Part shown: in pieces, positions 6,146 through 36,386 of the stretch
Layout: each line of letters starts with the position of its first letter
Numbering within the stretch: position 1 is the stretch's first letter
NCBI GenBank assembly: GCA_030524475.1
Contig: JAUNGO010000018.1
Location: 1-37,859, forward strand
DNA: 37,859 nucleotides
Direction of reading: 5' to 3'
From: Eggerthellaceae bacterium
Lineage (GTDB): Bacteria > Actinomycetota > Coriobacteriia > Coriobacteriales > Eggerthellaceae
Program-made: the position numbers and the translations under genes
The notes under the pieces: generated by a model
The model's input: only the letters and a program-made list of their open reading frames with translations
Database searches by the model: none
Told to the model about the DNA's origin: nothing

Positions 6146-6264
6146 AAGATTTCAACGAAAGCAAAAGCACCGCGCCCGCAGCGTCGGCATGCACAGGTCG
6201 AACGAGCACGTCAGCATCTCGCAAGCCAAATGCATGCATCATCGTCTCGCAGATCGTTCGTAAC

Positions 6265-6413
6265 GTCAGCGAGGGCTTCTGAGGCGTTTCAGATAGCCCC
6301 GCCTTTGCACCAAGTGGCCTTAGGGCCACGCCGCGTGCAAAACAAGGGGCTAGGTGAAATGCATCAGAAGCCCGCAGCGTCGGCATGTCGGTTCGTTGCA
6401 CAGCAACGAACCG
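6265..6413 (+). repeat. Structured intergenic element E1 (subfamily A)
   Basis: Opens with GTCAGCGAG (6265-6273). The stem GGGCTTCTGA (6273-6282) pairs with TCAGAAGCCC (6364-6373). Inner helices are GCGTTTC with GAAATGC, AGCCCC (6295-6300) with GGGGCT (6346-6351), TTTGCAC (6304-6310) with GTGCAAA (6335-6341), and GTGGCC (6314-6319) with GGCCAC (6324-6329). CAGCGTCGGC follows at 6375-6384. A separate hairpin comes last, CGGTTCGTTGC (6389-6399) with its exact complement (6403-6413) around ACA. The element ends 8 nt from the polA stop. It has no ORF and no U-run, so it is not a plain terminator. Confidence 0.8.
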
Positions 6414-6420
6414 AACGCAC

Positions 6421-9048
6421 CTAGTGCGCCTCCGCCCACGTGGGACCCCACGAGGCGTCCACCACGAGCGGCACGTTGAGCTCCACGACGTTTTCCATCA
6501 CGTCGCGCACCATCGCAGACAAACGCTCGACCTCGCCCTCGGGCACGCTGAAGTCCAGCTCGTCGTGCACCTGAAGCATCAGGCGCGCCGCAAACTGCTC
6601 GTCGTGCAAGCGGCGCATCACCTCGTTCATCGCCATCTTGATGATGTCGGCGGCGCTGCCTTGCATGGGGTGGTTCATGGCCGTGCGCTCGCCGAAGCCG
6701 CGCTGCTGGGCGTTGCGCGCGCGCAGCTCGGGGATATGGCGCTTGCGGCCGAACATCGTCTCGGCGAAGCCCGTCTCCTTCGCGCGCGCCACCGTCTCGT
6801 CGAGGTAGGTGCGCACGCCGGGGTATGCCTCGAAGTAGCGGTCGATCATGTCCTTCGCCTCGCCGAAGGGGATGTCGAGGCTTTGCGCCAGCCCAAAGGC
6901 CTGCTGCCCGTACACGATGCCGAAGTTCACCGCCTTCGCGCGGCTGCGCAGCTGCGGCGTGACCTCCTCGACCGGCAGCCCGAACACGCGCGCCGCCGTC
7001 GAGGCGTGGAAGTCGGCGCCCGAGTTGAACGCCGCCACCAAATGCTCGTCGCCCGACAGGTGCGCCAGCAGCCGAAGCTCGATCTGCGAATAGTCGGCCG
7101 ACAAGAACACCTCGCCCTCGCGCAGAGGGACGAACGCCGAGCGAATCTGGCGCCCGAAGTCGGTGCGCACGGGGATGTTCTGCAAGTTGGGGTCCGACGA
7201 GGACAGGCGCCCCGTGGTGGTCACCGTCTCGTTGAACTGGGTGTGAACGCGCCCGTCGCCCGCGCGCATGCGCGGCAGCGCGTCGATGTAGGTCGACTTG
7301 ATCTTCGCAAGCTCACGATAGCGCAGCACGAGCGCCGGCAGGTCGTGTACCTTCGCCAGCTCCTTGAGCACGCTCGCGTCGGTCGAGTATCCGCGCTGGT
7401 TCTTCTTCAGCGGCTTTAAGCCCAGCACCTCGAACAGGATGTGCGCCAGCTGCTTGGGCGAGTCTATGTTGAACGGCTCGCCCGCCAGCGCGTGAATCTG
7501 CTCGACCAGCCCGTCGAGCTCGCTTTGCGTGCGCGCCCCGATCTCGGCCAGCCGCGCGCAGTCGAGCGCGGCGCCCGTGCGCTCCATGCACGCGAGCACT
7601 CCCACCAACGGCAAGTCGATGTCGTCGTACACGCGCGCCGAGCCGTCGCGCTCAAGCGCCGCGCGCAGCGGGTCGACCAGCATGCGCACGGCAGCGGCCT
7701 CAAGCGCCACGCGCGCAACGTCGTCTTTCGCCTCGGGCAGCGCACCGCCCATGTGCTCCTCGCACAGGCTCTCGACGGTATGGGTCGACGTCGACGAGTT
7801 CAACACGTAGCCCGCAAGCGCCACGTCGAACGCACGCATAGAAAGCACCTCGGGCGCGTCGACCAACGCCCTCTCGGCGGTATCATTCGGGAACACGTAG
7901 CGCAGCGCCGCCTTCGCGTCGGCAGCCGCGAACGTCCCCTCGCGCACCACGCGCGCGAACAGCTCGAGCGCGTCGTCGCCTTCAAGCACGCCCGTGCCCT
8001 CCGACGTCGAGAACGCCGCCGTCACGCTCGGCTCGAAAAGGGACGCCTGCTCGGGCGTCGCGAACGCCACGCCGACGACCTCGCCGCGCCCAAGGGCCGC
8101 CTCGACCACGCCCACGCCCTGCTCCCCTTGCAGCACCGGGGCGGGGTCGACCTCCACCTCGGGACGCGCCGCCTCCGCGCCCACCAGCTTCAGCACGCGC
8201 GTGAGCGGGCTCACGAGCGCGTATTTCCCGAACGCCTCCCCAACGGCGTCCACGTCGAACGCGGGGAAGCTCGCGCCCTCCACGTCCAACTCGAAGTCGA
8301 GGTCGGTCACGATGGTGGCGATGCGGCGGCTCAGAAACGCCATGTCCTGGTTGTTGCGCAGGTTCTCAAGCTGCTTGCCCTTGAGCTCACCCAAGTTATC
8401 GTAGACGCCCTGCATCGTGCCGAAGCGCTGCAGCAGCTTGGAAGCCGATTTCGGACCGATGCCGGGCACGCCAGGAATGTTGTCGGAGCTGTCGCCCATA
8501 AGCCCCAGGTAGTCGGGAAACTGCTCGGGCGTGACGCCGTACTTCTCGTACACCTCCGCCGGGCCGAAAATTACCACGTCGGTGATGCCTTTTTTGGTGG
8601 TCACGATATGCGTGAGCTCGGTTGCCAGCTGGCAGGCGTCCTTGTCGCCGGTGACGAGCAGCGTCTCGTAGCCAAGCGCCTCGTCGCGCGCCGCCACCGT
8701 GCCCAAGATGTCGTCGCCTTCCCAGCCGGGCACCTTCACGACCGGCACGCCCATGCTCTCAAGCAGCTCCTCGATCACGGGGAACTGAACTCGCAGCTCC
8801 TCGTCCATCGGCGGGCGCTGCGCCTTGTACGTGCCGAGCTCCTCGATGCGGAACTGCGGCTTGCCCGCGTCGAACGCGCACACCACCGCGTCGGGAGAAG
8901 CCGTTTCCACGAACTTGCAGAACATCGACATGAAGCCGAACACGGCGCCCGTCGGCGTGCCGTCCGGCGCGTTCATGGGCGTTTGGATGGCATGGTAGGC
9001 GCGGTGCATCAGCGAGTTGCCGTCGATGACGGCTATCTTTTTGGGCAT
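6421..9048 (-). CDS. polA: DNA polymerase I
   Basis: 875 residues. The N-terminal 5'-3' exonuclease (1-290) has AVIDGNSLMHRAYHA, GDKDACQL and GVPGIGPKSA (H3TH). The middle 3'-5' exonuclease-like region (about 300-490) shows no clear DxE catalytic triad and looks inactive, as in many actinobacterial and Taq-type enzymes. The polymerase (500-875) carries motif A DYSQIELRLLAHLSGDE, motif B RSRAKAVNFGIVYG and motif C QVHDELDF. The gene fills gaps in repair and matures Okazaki fragments, so it works with ligA. The ATG at 9048 has AAGGAA upstream. Hairpin elements E1 and E2 flank it with their terminal hairpins facing the gene. Confidence 0.97.
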   Translation of the reverse strand: MPKKIAVIDGNSLMHRAYHAIQTPMNAPDGTPTGAVFGFMSMFCKFVETASPDAVVCAFDAGKPQFRIEELGTYKAQRPPMDEELRVQFPVIEELLESMGVPVVKVPGWEGDDILGTVAARDEALGYETLLVTGDKDACQLATELTHIVTTKKGITDVVIFGPAEVYEKYGVTPEQFPDYLGLMGDSSDNIPGVPGIGPKSASKLLQRFGTMQGVYDNLGELKGKQLENLRNNQDMAFLSRRIATIVTDLDFELDVEGASFPAFDVDAVGEAFGKYALVSPLTRVLKLVGAEAARPEVEVDPAPVLQGEQGVGVVEAALGRGEVVGVAFATPEQASLFEPSVTAAFSTSEGTGVLEGDDALELFARVVREGTFAAADAKAALRYVFPNDTAERALVDAPEVLSMRAFDVALAGYVLNSSTSTHTVESLCEEHMGGALPEAKDDVARVALEAAAVRMLVDPLRAALERDGSARVYDDIDLPLVGVLACMERTGAALDCARLAEIGARTQSELDGLVEQIHALAGEPFNIDSPKQLAHILFEVLGLKPLKKNQRGYSTDASVLKELAKVHDLPALVLRYRELAKIKSTYIDALPRMRAGDGRVHTQFNETVTTTGRLSSSDPNLQNIPVRTDFGRQIRSAFVPLREGEVFLSADYSQIELRLLAHLSGDEHLVAAFNSGADFHASTAARVFGLPVEEVTPQLRSRAKAVNFGIVYGQQAFGLAQSLDIPFGEAKDMIDRYFEAYPGVRTYLDETVARAKETGFAETMFGRKRHIPELRARNAQQRGFGERTAMNHPMQGSAADIIKMAMNEVMRRLHDEQFAARLMLQVHDELDFSVPEGEVERLSAMVRDVMENVVELNVPLVVDASWGPTWAEAH

Positions 9049-9104
9049 GGGGATTCCTTATCACGCGACAACGTATAGCATACGCAAAAGTATAACGCAT
9101 TGGA

Positions 9105-9255
9105 GTTCCGCCGTTGCTAACGCAACAGCGGAACCACTCGACGCTGCGAAGCGCCAAGGCGCCCATCCTTGCCGCTCCGAGCATTCGTCGCGTACCGAAG
9201 TACGCTTCCTCATGCTCTCACGGCCATTATGGGCGCCTTGGCGCTTCTCGCTGAC
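9105..9255 (-). repeat. Structured intergenic element E2 (subfamily B)
   Basis: Read on the minus strand, it opens with GTCAGCGAG (9255-9247). A 19-bp perfect stem follows (9229-9247 with 9148-9166). The inner part has GCCG/CGGC, then the loop UGA opposite GGAG, then GAGCAT/ATGCTC, then the asymmetric loop GAGGAA opposite GACGA, then GCGTAC/GTACGC capped by a UUCG tetraloop. The element closes with GCAGCGTC and a 13-bp hairpin (9105-9117 with 9122-9134) containing one G.U pair. It lies between the glnR-like gene and polA. The remaining 9049-9104 probably holds the polA promoter (TATACT-like), but no convincing -35 is seen. Confidence 0.8.
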
Positions 9256-9288
9256 TTATGCTCAACCCGCGGGAACAACTTACGCAAC

Positions 9289-9405
9289 CTGCGGGGCGAC
9301 GGGTGGCGTTCACCAAGCGAGTTCCGCAGCGACGCGAAAAGCCCAGTGGGCTTTCGCCAAAGCGAGGACTGTTCGAGCGACTGAACGCCACCCGTCGCCC
9401 CGCAG
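9289..9405. repeat. Structured element E3: 24-bp perfect inverted repeat with structured loop
   Basis: Arms 9289-9312 and 9382-9405 are perfect reverse complements over 24 nt. The 69-nt interior holds a GCGAAAAGCCC/GGGCTTTCGC hairpin (one bulge) with the loop AGT, plus a possible GTTC/GGAC and CGC/GCG helix. It lacks the GTCAGCGAG end of E1/E2. It ends 4 nt from the stop of the glnR-like gene, so it could shape that 3' end, but there is no U-run. Confidence 0.75.
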
Positions 9406-21843: not shown

Positions 21844-22872
21844 TTACAGCGCGCGCACCGCCTGGGGAATAGCCTCGATCACGTCCTCGGGCGTCACGCA
21901 GATGTCGGTGAGCTTCGCCGCCGCCGCGCGCCCCGCCTCGGCGTGCAGCGTCGCGCCGAGCACGGCGGCGTCGAGGGGCGCAAGCCCTTGGGCGAGCAGC
22001 GCGCCGACCATGCCCGCAAGCACGTCGCCCGTGCCCGCCTTGGCAAGCGCGGGCGTTCCTTGGCGCATGGCGTAAGTCGCCTCGCCGTCGGAGACAAACG
22101 TGTCGGGACCTTTGAGGGCGACGACGGCGCCGAAGGCGCGCGCCAAGCGCGCCGCGAGCTCGGGAGCGTCGAGCGCGTCGGCGTCGATGCCCGCCGCGCG
22201 CGCCAAGCGCGCCGCCTCTCCCCCGTGCGGCGTGAGCACGAGCGGCGCCGCGCTCAGCGCGCGCTCCTGCGCAACCGCCGCGTCGCGCGCGCGATTCGTG
22301 GCTTGGATAGGGCCGTTGTAGGCGTTTTTTGGCTGCAATTGAGTCGTTGTAGGCGTTTTTGGGCTCGAAATCCGCCTACAAGCGCCGTTTTCAAGCCACG
22401 AGTTCTTCAGGCACGCGCGCTCCTGCGCAGCCGCCAGCCCATCGCGTGTGGCAAGCGCCGTGAGCGCTCCCCCGTCGACAAGCACCGGCGCGCCCACCTT
22501 GCGCACAACTTCGAGCGCAAGACGCGCGCAGCGCGCGTCGGAGGAATCGAACCCCGGGCCCACCGCGCATGCGGCGGGGCGCTCGGCGTGAGCGCTTTGC
22601 GCCGCGCGCGACGCGTCCCACCCGTCCCACGACCGAACGACGAGCGAGGGGCGAAAACCGCGCACCACGTCGACGCTCTCGGGCGCGCATACCACCTCGA
22701 CGTATCCTGCGCCCGTACGCTGCGCGGCGAACGCCGCAAGGCACGCGGCGCCCGGATACACCGCCGCGCCCGCCACCACGGTGAGCTTGCCACGCGCATA
22801 CTTGTGGGCATCCGACGCCGGCCACGGGAGCAGCGCGCTCAGCTGGTCGGGGGTGTACTCGAAAACGTCCAT
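21844..22872 (-). CDS. nnrD: ADP-dependent NAD(P)H-hydrate dehydratase with 52-residue insertion
   Basis: 342 residues against about 280 usual. It repairs hydrated NADH and NADPH in an ADP-dependent reaction. The ribokinase-like fold shows AHKYARGKLTVVAG, CAVGPGF, LVLTPHGGEAARL, VALKGPDTFVSDG and AKAGTGDVLAGMVGALLAQG, the last with the catalytic Asp. The partner epimerase domain (NnrE) is absent. Between GALTALATRDGL and LVLTPH lies a 52-residue excess encoded by palindromic repeats flanked by a 22-bp duplication. The frame is kept and no stop arises. The start is ATG 22872 with GGGCGGG upstream; TTG 22881 is an alternative. It lies 18 bp after acpS in the same operon. Confidence 0.9.
   Translation of the reverse strand: MDVFEYTPDQLSALLPWPASDAHKYARGKLTVVAGAAVYPGAACLAAFAAQRTGAGYVEVVCAPESVDVVRGFRPSLVVRSWDGWDASRAAQSAHAERPAACAVGPGFDSSDARCARLALEVVRKVGAPVLVDGGALTALATRDGLAAAQERACLKNSWLENGACRRISSPKTPTTTQLQPKNAYNGPIQATNRARDAAVAQERALSAAPLVLTPHGGEAARLARAAGIDADALDAPELAARLARAFGAVVALKGPDTFVSDGEATYAMRQGTPALAKAGTGDVLAGMVGALLAQGLAPLDAAVLGATLHAEAGRAAAAKLTDICVTPEDVIEAIPQAVRAL
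22258..22279. repeat. Left copy of 22-bp duplication flanking the nnrD insertion
   Basis: This 22-bp segment matches 22414-22435 at 21 of 22 positions. The offset is 156 bp, exactly 52 codons. At protein level it gives AQERA on both sides of the insert. Confidence 0.75.
22299..22398. repeat. Three 26-nt palindromic repeat units inside nnrD
   Basis: Units at 22299-22324 (+), 22330-22355 (+) and 22373-22398 (-) match those downstream of tRNA-Lys: TGGCT, then CGTTGTAGGCG at offset 15 (GCTTGTAGGCG in the third). The pair 22330-22398 is a 69-nt palindrome with a 17-nt centre. Arm length and centre length are the same as at 1378-1446. The centre here, read in reverse, shares its GATT start and CAAAAA end with the other copy. 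Confidence 0.85.
22414..22435. repeat. Right copy of 22-bp duplication flanking the nnrD insertion
   Basis: The partner of 22258-22279, with one mismatch. It looks like a target-site duplication or a slipped host duplication. Confidence 0.75.
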
Positions 22873-34719: not shown

Positions 34720-34867
34720 TCCGTTCGTTGCCATGCAACGAACGGACACGCCGACGCTGTGCGGCAGCTGGGCGGTCGATTTGGCGCTCCAAGCCCTCGT
34801 CGTGGCCCGAAGGCCACTTCCTCGGGCTTTCACGCCAAATCAACTCGCCGAGCTGCCGCTCGCTGAC
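34720..34867 (-). repeat. Structured intergenic element E4 (subfamily B)
   Basis: On the minus strand, GTCAGCGAG (34867-34859) leads to an outer stem (34833-34859 with 34761-34786). Then come GGCG/CGCC, the loop UGA opposite GGAG, AAGCCC/GGGCTT, the loop GAGGAA opposite GACGA, and GTGGCC/GGCCAC with a UUCG tetraloop. CAGCGTCGGC follows (34759-34750). A 12-bp perfect hairpin with a 3-nt loop (34720-34746) closes it. The loops equal those of E2 while the helices differ. It lies between glyA and the atp promoter. Confidence 0.8.
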
Positions 34868-34915
34868 GCTACGAACAACCTGCGAGCCCTTGAATACTAG
34901 TCTTATGATTAAAGA

Positions 34916-36197: not shown

Positions 36198-36226
36198 CTC
36201 TTATTACGCAAAAGCTCGCAGGTCAA
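36198..36226 (-). promoter_or_regulatory. Promoter of glyA
   Basis: TTGACC (36221-36226) and TAAGAG (36198-36203) on the minus strand are separated by 17 bp. The -35 lies 8 bp from the edge of element E5. Confidence 0.6.
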
Positions 36227-36234
36227 ACGTATAC

Positions 36235-36386
36235 GTCAGCGAGAGGCGCTGAGGCGTTCCGAATAGCCCCGCCTTTGGGCCAAGTTGGCTTTCGCCAACG
36301 CCGCGCCCAAAACAAGGGGCTAGGCGGAATGCCTCAGCGCTTCGCAGCGTCGGCGGTTCCGTCCGCTCCGTCAGGATGGACGGAAC
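36235..36386 (+). repeat. Structured intergenic element E5 (subfamily A), overlapping rpiB
   Basis: Opens with GTCAGCGAG (36235-36243). The stem 36246-36260 pairs with 36326-36340. Inner helices are AGCCCC/GGGGCT, TTTGGGC/GCCCAAA and GTTGGC/GCCAAC with the loop TTTC. CAGCGTCGGC (36345-36354) and a hairpin GTTCCGTCC/GGACGGAAC (36356-36386) end it. The loops GCC/ACAA and CAA/GCCGC equal those of E1. Its last 53 bp encode the C-terminus of rpiB on the other strand. Confidence 0.8.

Follow-up and report, generated by a model that had tools for sequence, protein, structure and literature searches.

Dispersed, structured and non-autonomous repeats of about 155 bp are present in the Bacillus cereus group as bcr1-type elements, for which we know of no enzyme; these elements come from another taxon and are likened to the repeat reported here by description only. 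The REP sequences of the GTAG/CGTC type are palindromes of 20–40 bp, with an unpaired tag at the foot of the stem and a CCA-like tail, the stem of CGTC REPs being 8–9 bp long (PMC3733652). REP and BIME sequences occur in many copies per genome, in intergenic regions, mostly at most 20 bp from ORF 3′ ends and between unidirectional or convergent genes, and CGTC REPs, too, lack a known transposase (PMC3733652). The repeat from the Coriobacteriales that we describe shares with REP the high copy number, the palindromic organization and the intergenic position near ORF 3′ ends, and the tetranucleotide CGTC is found in the motifs flanking its main hairpin on both sides. However, it is approximately 170 nt long rather than 20–40, contains a 19-bp stem with several conserved asymmetric loops instead of a stem of 8–9 bp, folds in a strand-specific manner, keeps a single orientation to the stop codon and has a modular core that falls into classes. 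The proposed mode of propagation resembles that of RAYT-mobilised REPs, hairpin repeats thought to move in single-stranded form, but several copy-rich genomes lack a Y1 transposase. The REP survey reports no such repeat in Coriobacteriia (PMC3733652), and no description of it was found in the literature searched, which included that survey and left most subscription papers outside its scope. Like the structured RNAs in Rfam, the element is a covarying multi-loop hairpin, but no Rfam 15 family reached its gathering threshold in strict and permissive searches, and the matches below the threshold were of the miRNA type and at chance level. The element is best filed with REP-like dispersed structured repeats, as which it functions, even if its size, stem and relation to transposases set it apart from the described REP families.

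The window, that is, the entire 37,859-nt stretch of Eggerthellaceae DNA analysed, contains two copies on the minus strand, E2 and E4, which had been singled out in a preliminary description for their common internal loops and rewritten, still-paired helices. The positions and sequences given there are correct, every helix pair quoted is found in E2 and E4, and the pattern lies far above chance. In a shuffle comparison of folding, E2 and E4 yielded z = −8.5 and z = −9.2, respectively, and the signature GAGGAA...UUCG...GACGA occurs twice in the window (0.05 expected) and in six copies genome-wide. The whole element has three parts. At its 5′ side lies a box that varies between lineages (family consensus TCRCAGGTCGTTCGTAAC); the main hairpin (GUCAGCGAG...CGCAGCGUCG), which is strand-specific, comes next, and the 3′ side is formed by a short hairpin, mostly GTTCCG...CGGAAC with a loop of the C(GNYA)G type. 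The main hairpin, of about 121 nt, has the ends GTCAGCGAG and CGCAGCGTCG, and its outer stem of 19 bp includes a tandem U·G/G·U. In E2, the main hairpin (9135–9255, minus strand) belongs to core class A and scores 136.7 bits with R1, a covariance model built from six class-A copies including E2 itself. Its GTCAGCGAG end is followed by the 19-bp outer stem, a 2×2 loop, 7 bp, the UGA/GGAG loop, 6 bp, the GAGGAA/GACGA loop, 6 bp and the UUCG loop, and the hairpin closes with CGCAGCGTCG. The 3′ hairpin of E2 (9102–9137, minus) reads GTTCCGCTGTTGC-GTTA-GCAACGGCGGAAC, and its degenerate 5′ box (9256–9275, minus) reads CCCGCGGGTTGAGCATAA, so that the originally proposed extent, 9105–9255, is too short, having missed the 5′ box upstream. 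E4 comprises a class-A main hairpin (34748–34867, minus; 125.3 bits with R1), a 3′ hairpin (34720–34746, minus; TCCGTTCGTTGC-ATG-GCAACGAACGGA) and a 5′ box (34868–34886, minus; TCGCAGGTTGTTCGTAGC). Directly upstream of E2, at 9289–9405, lies a second long palindrome, GGGCGACGGGTGGCGTTC...GAACGCCACCCGTCGCCC, with an inner hairpin; a related sequence, GCGAGTTCCGCA...AGGACTGT..GAGCGACTGA, at a locus of a congener (L195) suggests another repeat family.

Two more copies, at 6247–6414 and 36217–36386 on the plus strand, have the same frame as E2 and E4 and a different core, assigned to class B. The third copy includes a 5′ box (6247–6264, plus; TCGCAGATCGTTCGTAAC), a main hairpin (6265–6386, plus; R1 E = 1.8e-17) with GCC/ACAA and CAA/GCCGC loops, and a 3′ hairpin (6388–6414, plus), with the polA stop codon, on the minus strand, at 6421. 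The polA gene is thus located between two copies (6247–9275), one on the plus strand behind its stop codon and E2, on the minus strand, before its start. The fourth copy has a 5′ box (36217–36234, plus; TCGCAGGTCAAACGTATAC), a main hairpin (36235–36356, plus; R1 E = 8.3e-19) and a 3′ hairpin (36358–36386, plus); an rpiB-like ORF on the minus strand runs through the latter and has its stop codon inside the element, at 36334. The third copy is closely preceded, at 6180–6240, by a degenerate remnant of another copy, GCCCGCAGCGTCGGCATG followed by CACAGGTCGAACGAGCACGTCAGC, and at 1330–1490 and 22299–22359, units of about 30 nt (TGGCTTCAAATGAGTCGTTGTAGGCG) are repeated in both orientations, apparently representing another dispersed repeat.

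Across the family, core class A is characterized by the loops UGA/GGAG and GAGGAA/GACGA, class B by GCC/ACAA and CAA/GCCG(A/C), and class C by a CTGA/GAAGG loop, the three being one architecture with different loops. The GAGGAA/GACGA loop, initially regarded as fixed, is so within class A but is swapped as a unit in most copies. Helix modules assort randomly among copies. Where main hairpins at unrelated sites are 88–96% alike, the accompanying 5′ boxes are no more similar than those of random pairs (0.67 versus 0.68), and the same applies to the 3′ hairpins (0.74 versus 0.72). These unlinked ends, together with the random assortment of modules, indicate that copies trade the main hairpin, as a whole or in part, with one another. 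The possibility that the 3′ hairpin is a target of the element rather than a part of it was rejected, given that, of 84 TTCCG...CGGAA hairpins counted across the loci retrieved, 77 come with the CGTC motif of the element; the other seven are mostly variants, and one alone is truly solo. Remnants left by deletion or truncation are frequent, and derivatives with internal deletions retain the 5′ box and the 3′ hairpin. At three loci (L334, L164 and L371), in three genomes, a further hairpin repeat (CTATGCGCCCGAGAGGGCGCG... and then an AGC/GCT-rich stem) is located within the core of the element. Tandem 3′ modules (CTTCGCAGCGTCGAGC plus hairpin) separate a full element from the stop codon at three loci; the module is repeated once in L332 and L339 and three times in L375, with a nearly identical starting point each time.

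Evidence of selection on the fold comes from covariation. Among the six class-A copies of the genome, both sides were changed in 30 of 54 pairs, with 55 double-changed cells, whereas shuffled sequences gave 19 and sliding the register never gave more than 13. In an alignment of 49 class-A-like sequences, which represent many genera, pairing is kept in 96% of the cells, double changes affect 36 of 40 pairs and the covariation score is 0.59 versus at most 0.12 after sliding, bearing in mind that this alignment was fitted to the model and leans towards it, that 39 of the underlying loci came from a loop-fixing pattern, and that gene conversion may copy blocks of paired changes together, making for fewer events than changed cells. 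Paired changes could also arise without selection if template-switching during replication overwrote one palindrome arm with a copy of its partner, and the 3′ hairpins, near-perfect and freely varying palindromes with strand-neutral wobble (G·T 46, A·C 42), would fit such a process. In the main hairpin, however, the asymmetric loops and the tandem U·G/G·U outlast the rewriting of the helices; since arm copying would erase them, we regard template-switching as the least probable of the explanations weighed here. The G·A/A·G loop is likewise preserved in rewritten helices.

The wobble pairs of the main hairpin are strongly asymmetric. On the strand read in the preliminary description, the outer stems of the copies in the window's genome, the Adlercreutzia-like MAG G000, contain 98 G·T and 14 A·C pairs, and the counts for class A in all genera are 126 and 24, respectively; 53 of 62 copies and 39 of 39 copies fold better on this strand. 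The G·T excess and the better folding indicate that this strand, whether as RNA or as ssDNA, is the one under selection, which, along with the massive covariation, strongly supports the earlier claim of a selected structure. The element displays many covarying pairs and conserved unpaired residues on one strand, as is generally expected of a structured RNA. The main hairpin could be a host-functional RNA, transcribed from this strand and acting at gene 3′ ends or in operons, as an antisense RNA or as a site for RNase III or an RNA-binding protein, with each copy kept for its effect. The preponderance of G·U over A·C, the tandem U·G/G·U, the C(UUCG)G loops and the 2×2 purine loop, which takes the form GA/GA or AA/GG (Fisher p = 3e-7, with copies treated as unrelated) in a G·A/A·G exchange, all speak for an RNA. 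By contrast, no promoter-like signal was found upstream of the copies, most of which are antisense to both neighbouring genes.

The placement of the copies is highly regular. In G000, 55 of 60 copies have an oppositely oriented gene past their 3′ hairpin, and 35 stop codons are located 29–39 nt beyond the end of the model, a distance that places them right behind the 3′ hairpin; E2 and E4 are among only four copies with both flanking genes running in the direction of the element. In other genera, all 35 class-A copies for which this could be determined likewise have an antisense gene on their 3′ side. Besides the fourth copy of the window, several copies in G000 overlap the ends of coding regions. 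The adjacent genes are functionally unrelated, housekeeping ones, which does not favour a host RNA, and no common neighbour that could represent a protein partner was detected beside class-A copies except at orthologous sites. Conserved sites lie within co-oriented, operon-like gene pairs, which, from our own reading of the proteins, we take to be frr-uppS, glnP-glnQ and a cupin regulator with an AMP-ligase. Bidirectional transcription terminators at gene ends would account for 3′ hairpins that adjoin stop codons and have strand-neutral wobble. Nevertheless, the hairpins are flanked by a T-run on neither side, the sequence following them in the sense direction being A-rich or mixed, and the ordinary terminators in the window are of another type. 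Given this and the presence of elements inside operons such as frr-uppS, both of which argue against a plain terminator, this explanation appears very improbable. Displacement of native terminators by the element was likewise considered and rejected, as filled and empty sites do not differ.

R1 matches about 64 copies in the 2.3-Mb genome of G000. The element was identified in 122 of 298 Coriobacteriia genomes (E ≤ 1e-4), covering much of the order Coriobacteriales, and in 14 of 296 genomes drawn from across the phylum Actinomycetota, with a single weak match outside the order. Among 84,980 species genomes, the exact class-A core is restricted to Eggerthellaceae, as judged by record titles that give genera of the Eggerthellaceae or, under the naming of the time, Coriobacteriaceae. 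This core is absent from IMG/VR. There was no phage match, and the only match in the plasmid collection is a 0.9-Mb Collinsella replicon. A Collinsella replicon with NCBI annotation displays the geometry of the G000 copies. An origin from phages or plasmids was discarded, the weaker motif matches examined (L225–L227) being attributable to chance.

Of 63 loci in two congeners that hold the orthologous ends of element-bearing G000 genes, just 8 yield an element with R1, implying that the majority of sites are unoccupied in these relatives and that sites turn over. This scarcity does not sit well with a host-functional RNA kept at each site for its effect. Conversely, some sites show long occupancy. 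The frr-uppS site is occupied in about 11 of 30 genomes (by R1 and reading), never in the opposite orientation, and remnants are present in L366, L383 and L388; the glnP-glnQ and AMP-ligase sites, too, are filled in several genera in one orientation, and at the last of these, Paraeggerthella and Eggerthella sequences display a C-G to U·G to U-A series. The repeated occupation of frr-uppS and the compensatory changes at the AMP-ligase site support a host function, and what looks like long vertical upkeep of all three sites fits it better. Long occupancy and the AMP-ligase series are the chief evidence against the dispersed-repeat reading favoured below. On the whole, we consider a host-functional RNA unlikely, albeit the likeliest of the rival explanations.

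Truncated copies are predominantly shortened at the 5′ end (about 10, compared to three at the 3′ end). Such a bias, the A-rich stretch beyond the 3′ hairpin and the truncated 3′ modules in tandem are reminiscent of SINE-like retroelements, in which an RNA is reverse-transcribed onto a primed target, so that the 3′ end is fixed and the 5′ end truncated. Nonetheless, the bias is small and could be explained by retention of the 3′ hairpin, and RVT_1 is absent from seven copy-rich genomes (G000, G019, G022, G024, G028, G032 and G052), leaving a SINE-like origin improbable, if slightly less so than terminators. The RAYT/Y1 and IS91/Y2 enzymes fare no better than reverse transcriptases as mobilisers, each being missing from copy-rich genomes: Y1 (PF01797) was not detected in G000, G001, G002, G007, G009, G019, G022, G023, G028 and G032, and Y2 (PF04986) is present in one of 60 genomes, which is itself without copies. 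G024 has Y1 and lacks reverse transcriptase and Y2, whereas G019, G028 and G032 are devoid of all three; the completeness of G000 is 85%, and that of G019, G024, G028 and G032 is 95–99%. A MITE of a DDE transposon was also rejected, because the 5′ box and the 3′ hairpin are not inverted copies of each other and there is no target-site duplication, no repeated flanking word exceeding the background.

The repeat hence combines high copy number, site turnover, a fold selected on a single strand, interchangeable modules and a fixed orientation to the stop codon. What had been proposed as a structured RNA class has a selected fold, as claimed, but this label captures only half of the picture: the copies are numerous and dispersed, their sites turn over, they swap modules and they keep a fixed place behind stop codons. 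On balance, we favour, as somewhat more probable than not, a dispersed, non-autonomous, REP-like repeat of Coriobacteriales, the folded strand of which is recognised and copied or inserted, or the main hairpin of which is replaced, near gene ends. Under this REP-like reading, a putative protein would recognise the folded strand, as ssDNA or RNA, and insert copies by the 3′ ends of genes or swap the main hairpin of resident copies, with spread or homogenisation by gene conversion proceeding via the single-stranded fold. The structure would persist through selection on being copied, and host effects on intercistronic RNA would be secondary. Alternatively, the turnover could reflect loss of old copies and the module swapping ordinary gene conversion. 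More tentatively, and with a rather low likelihood, the repeat may represent a new mobile or recombining element, in which a putative enzyme writes a strand-specific folded cassette, GTCAGCGAG...CGCAGCGTCG, into stop-codon-anchored frames and helix modules are swapped between copies; neither a HUH transposase nor a reverse transcriptase would take part, and the ends would not be of the DDE type.

Members of the Coriobacteriales, such as Eggerthella, Gordonibacter, Adlercreutzia, Slackia and Collinsella, are common in the gut and modify drugs and plant compounds. A previously unannotated repeat behind their housekeeping genes and within their operons alters the reading of transcripts, assemblies and strain differences. 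It also serves as a caution that strong covariation does not necessarily signify a classical regulatory RNA. With loops fixed in each class, helices free to vary and modules exchangeable, the family amounts to a natural mutational scan of recognition by the putative protein, and the missing enzyme presents a definite target.
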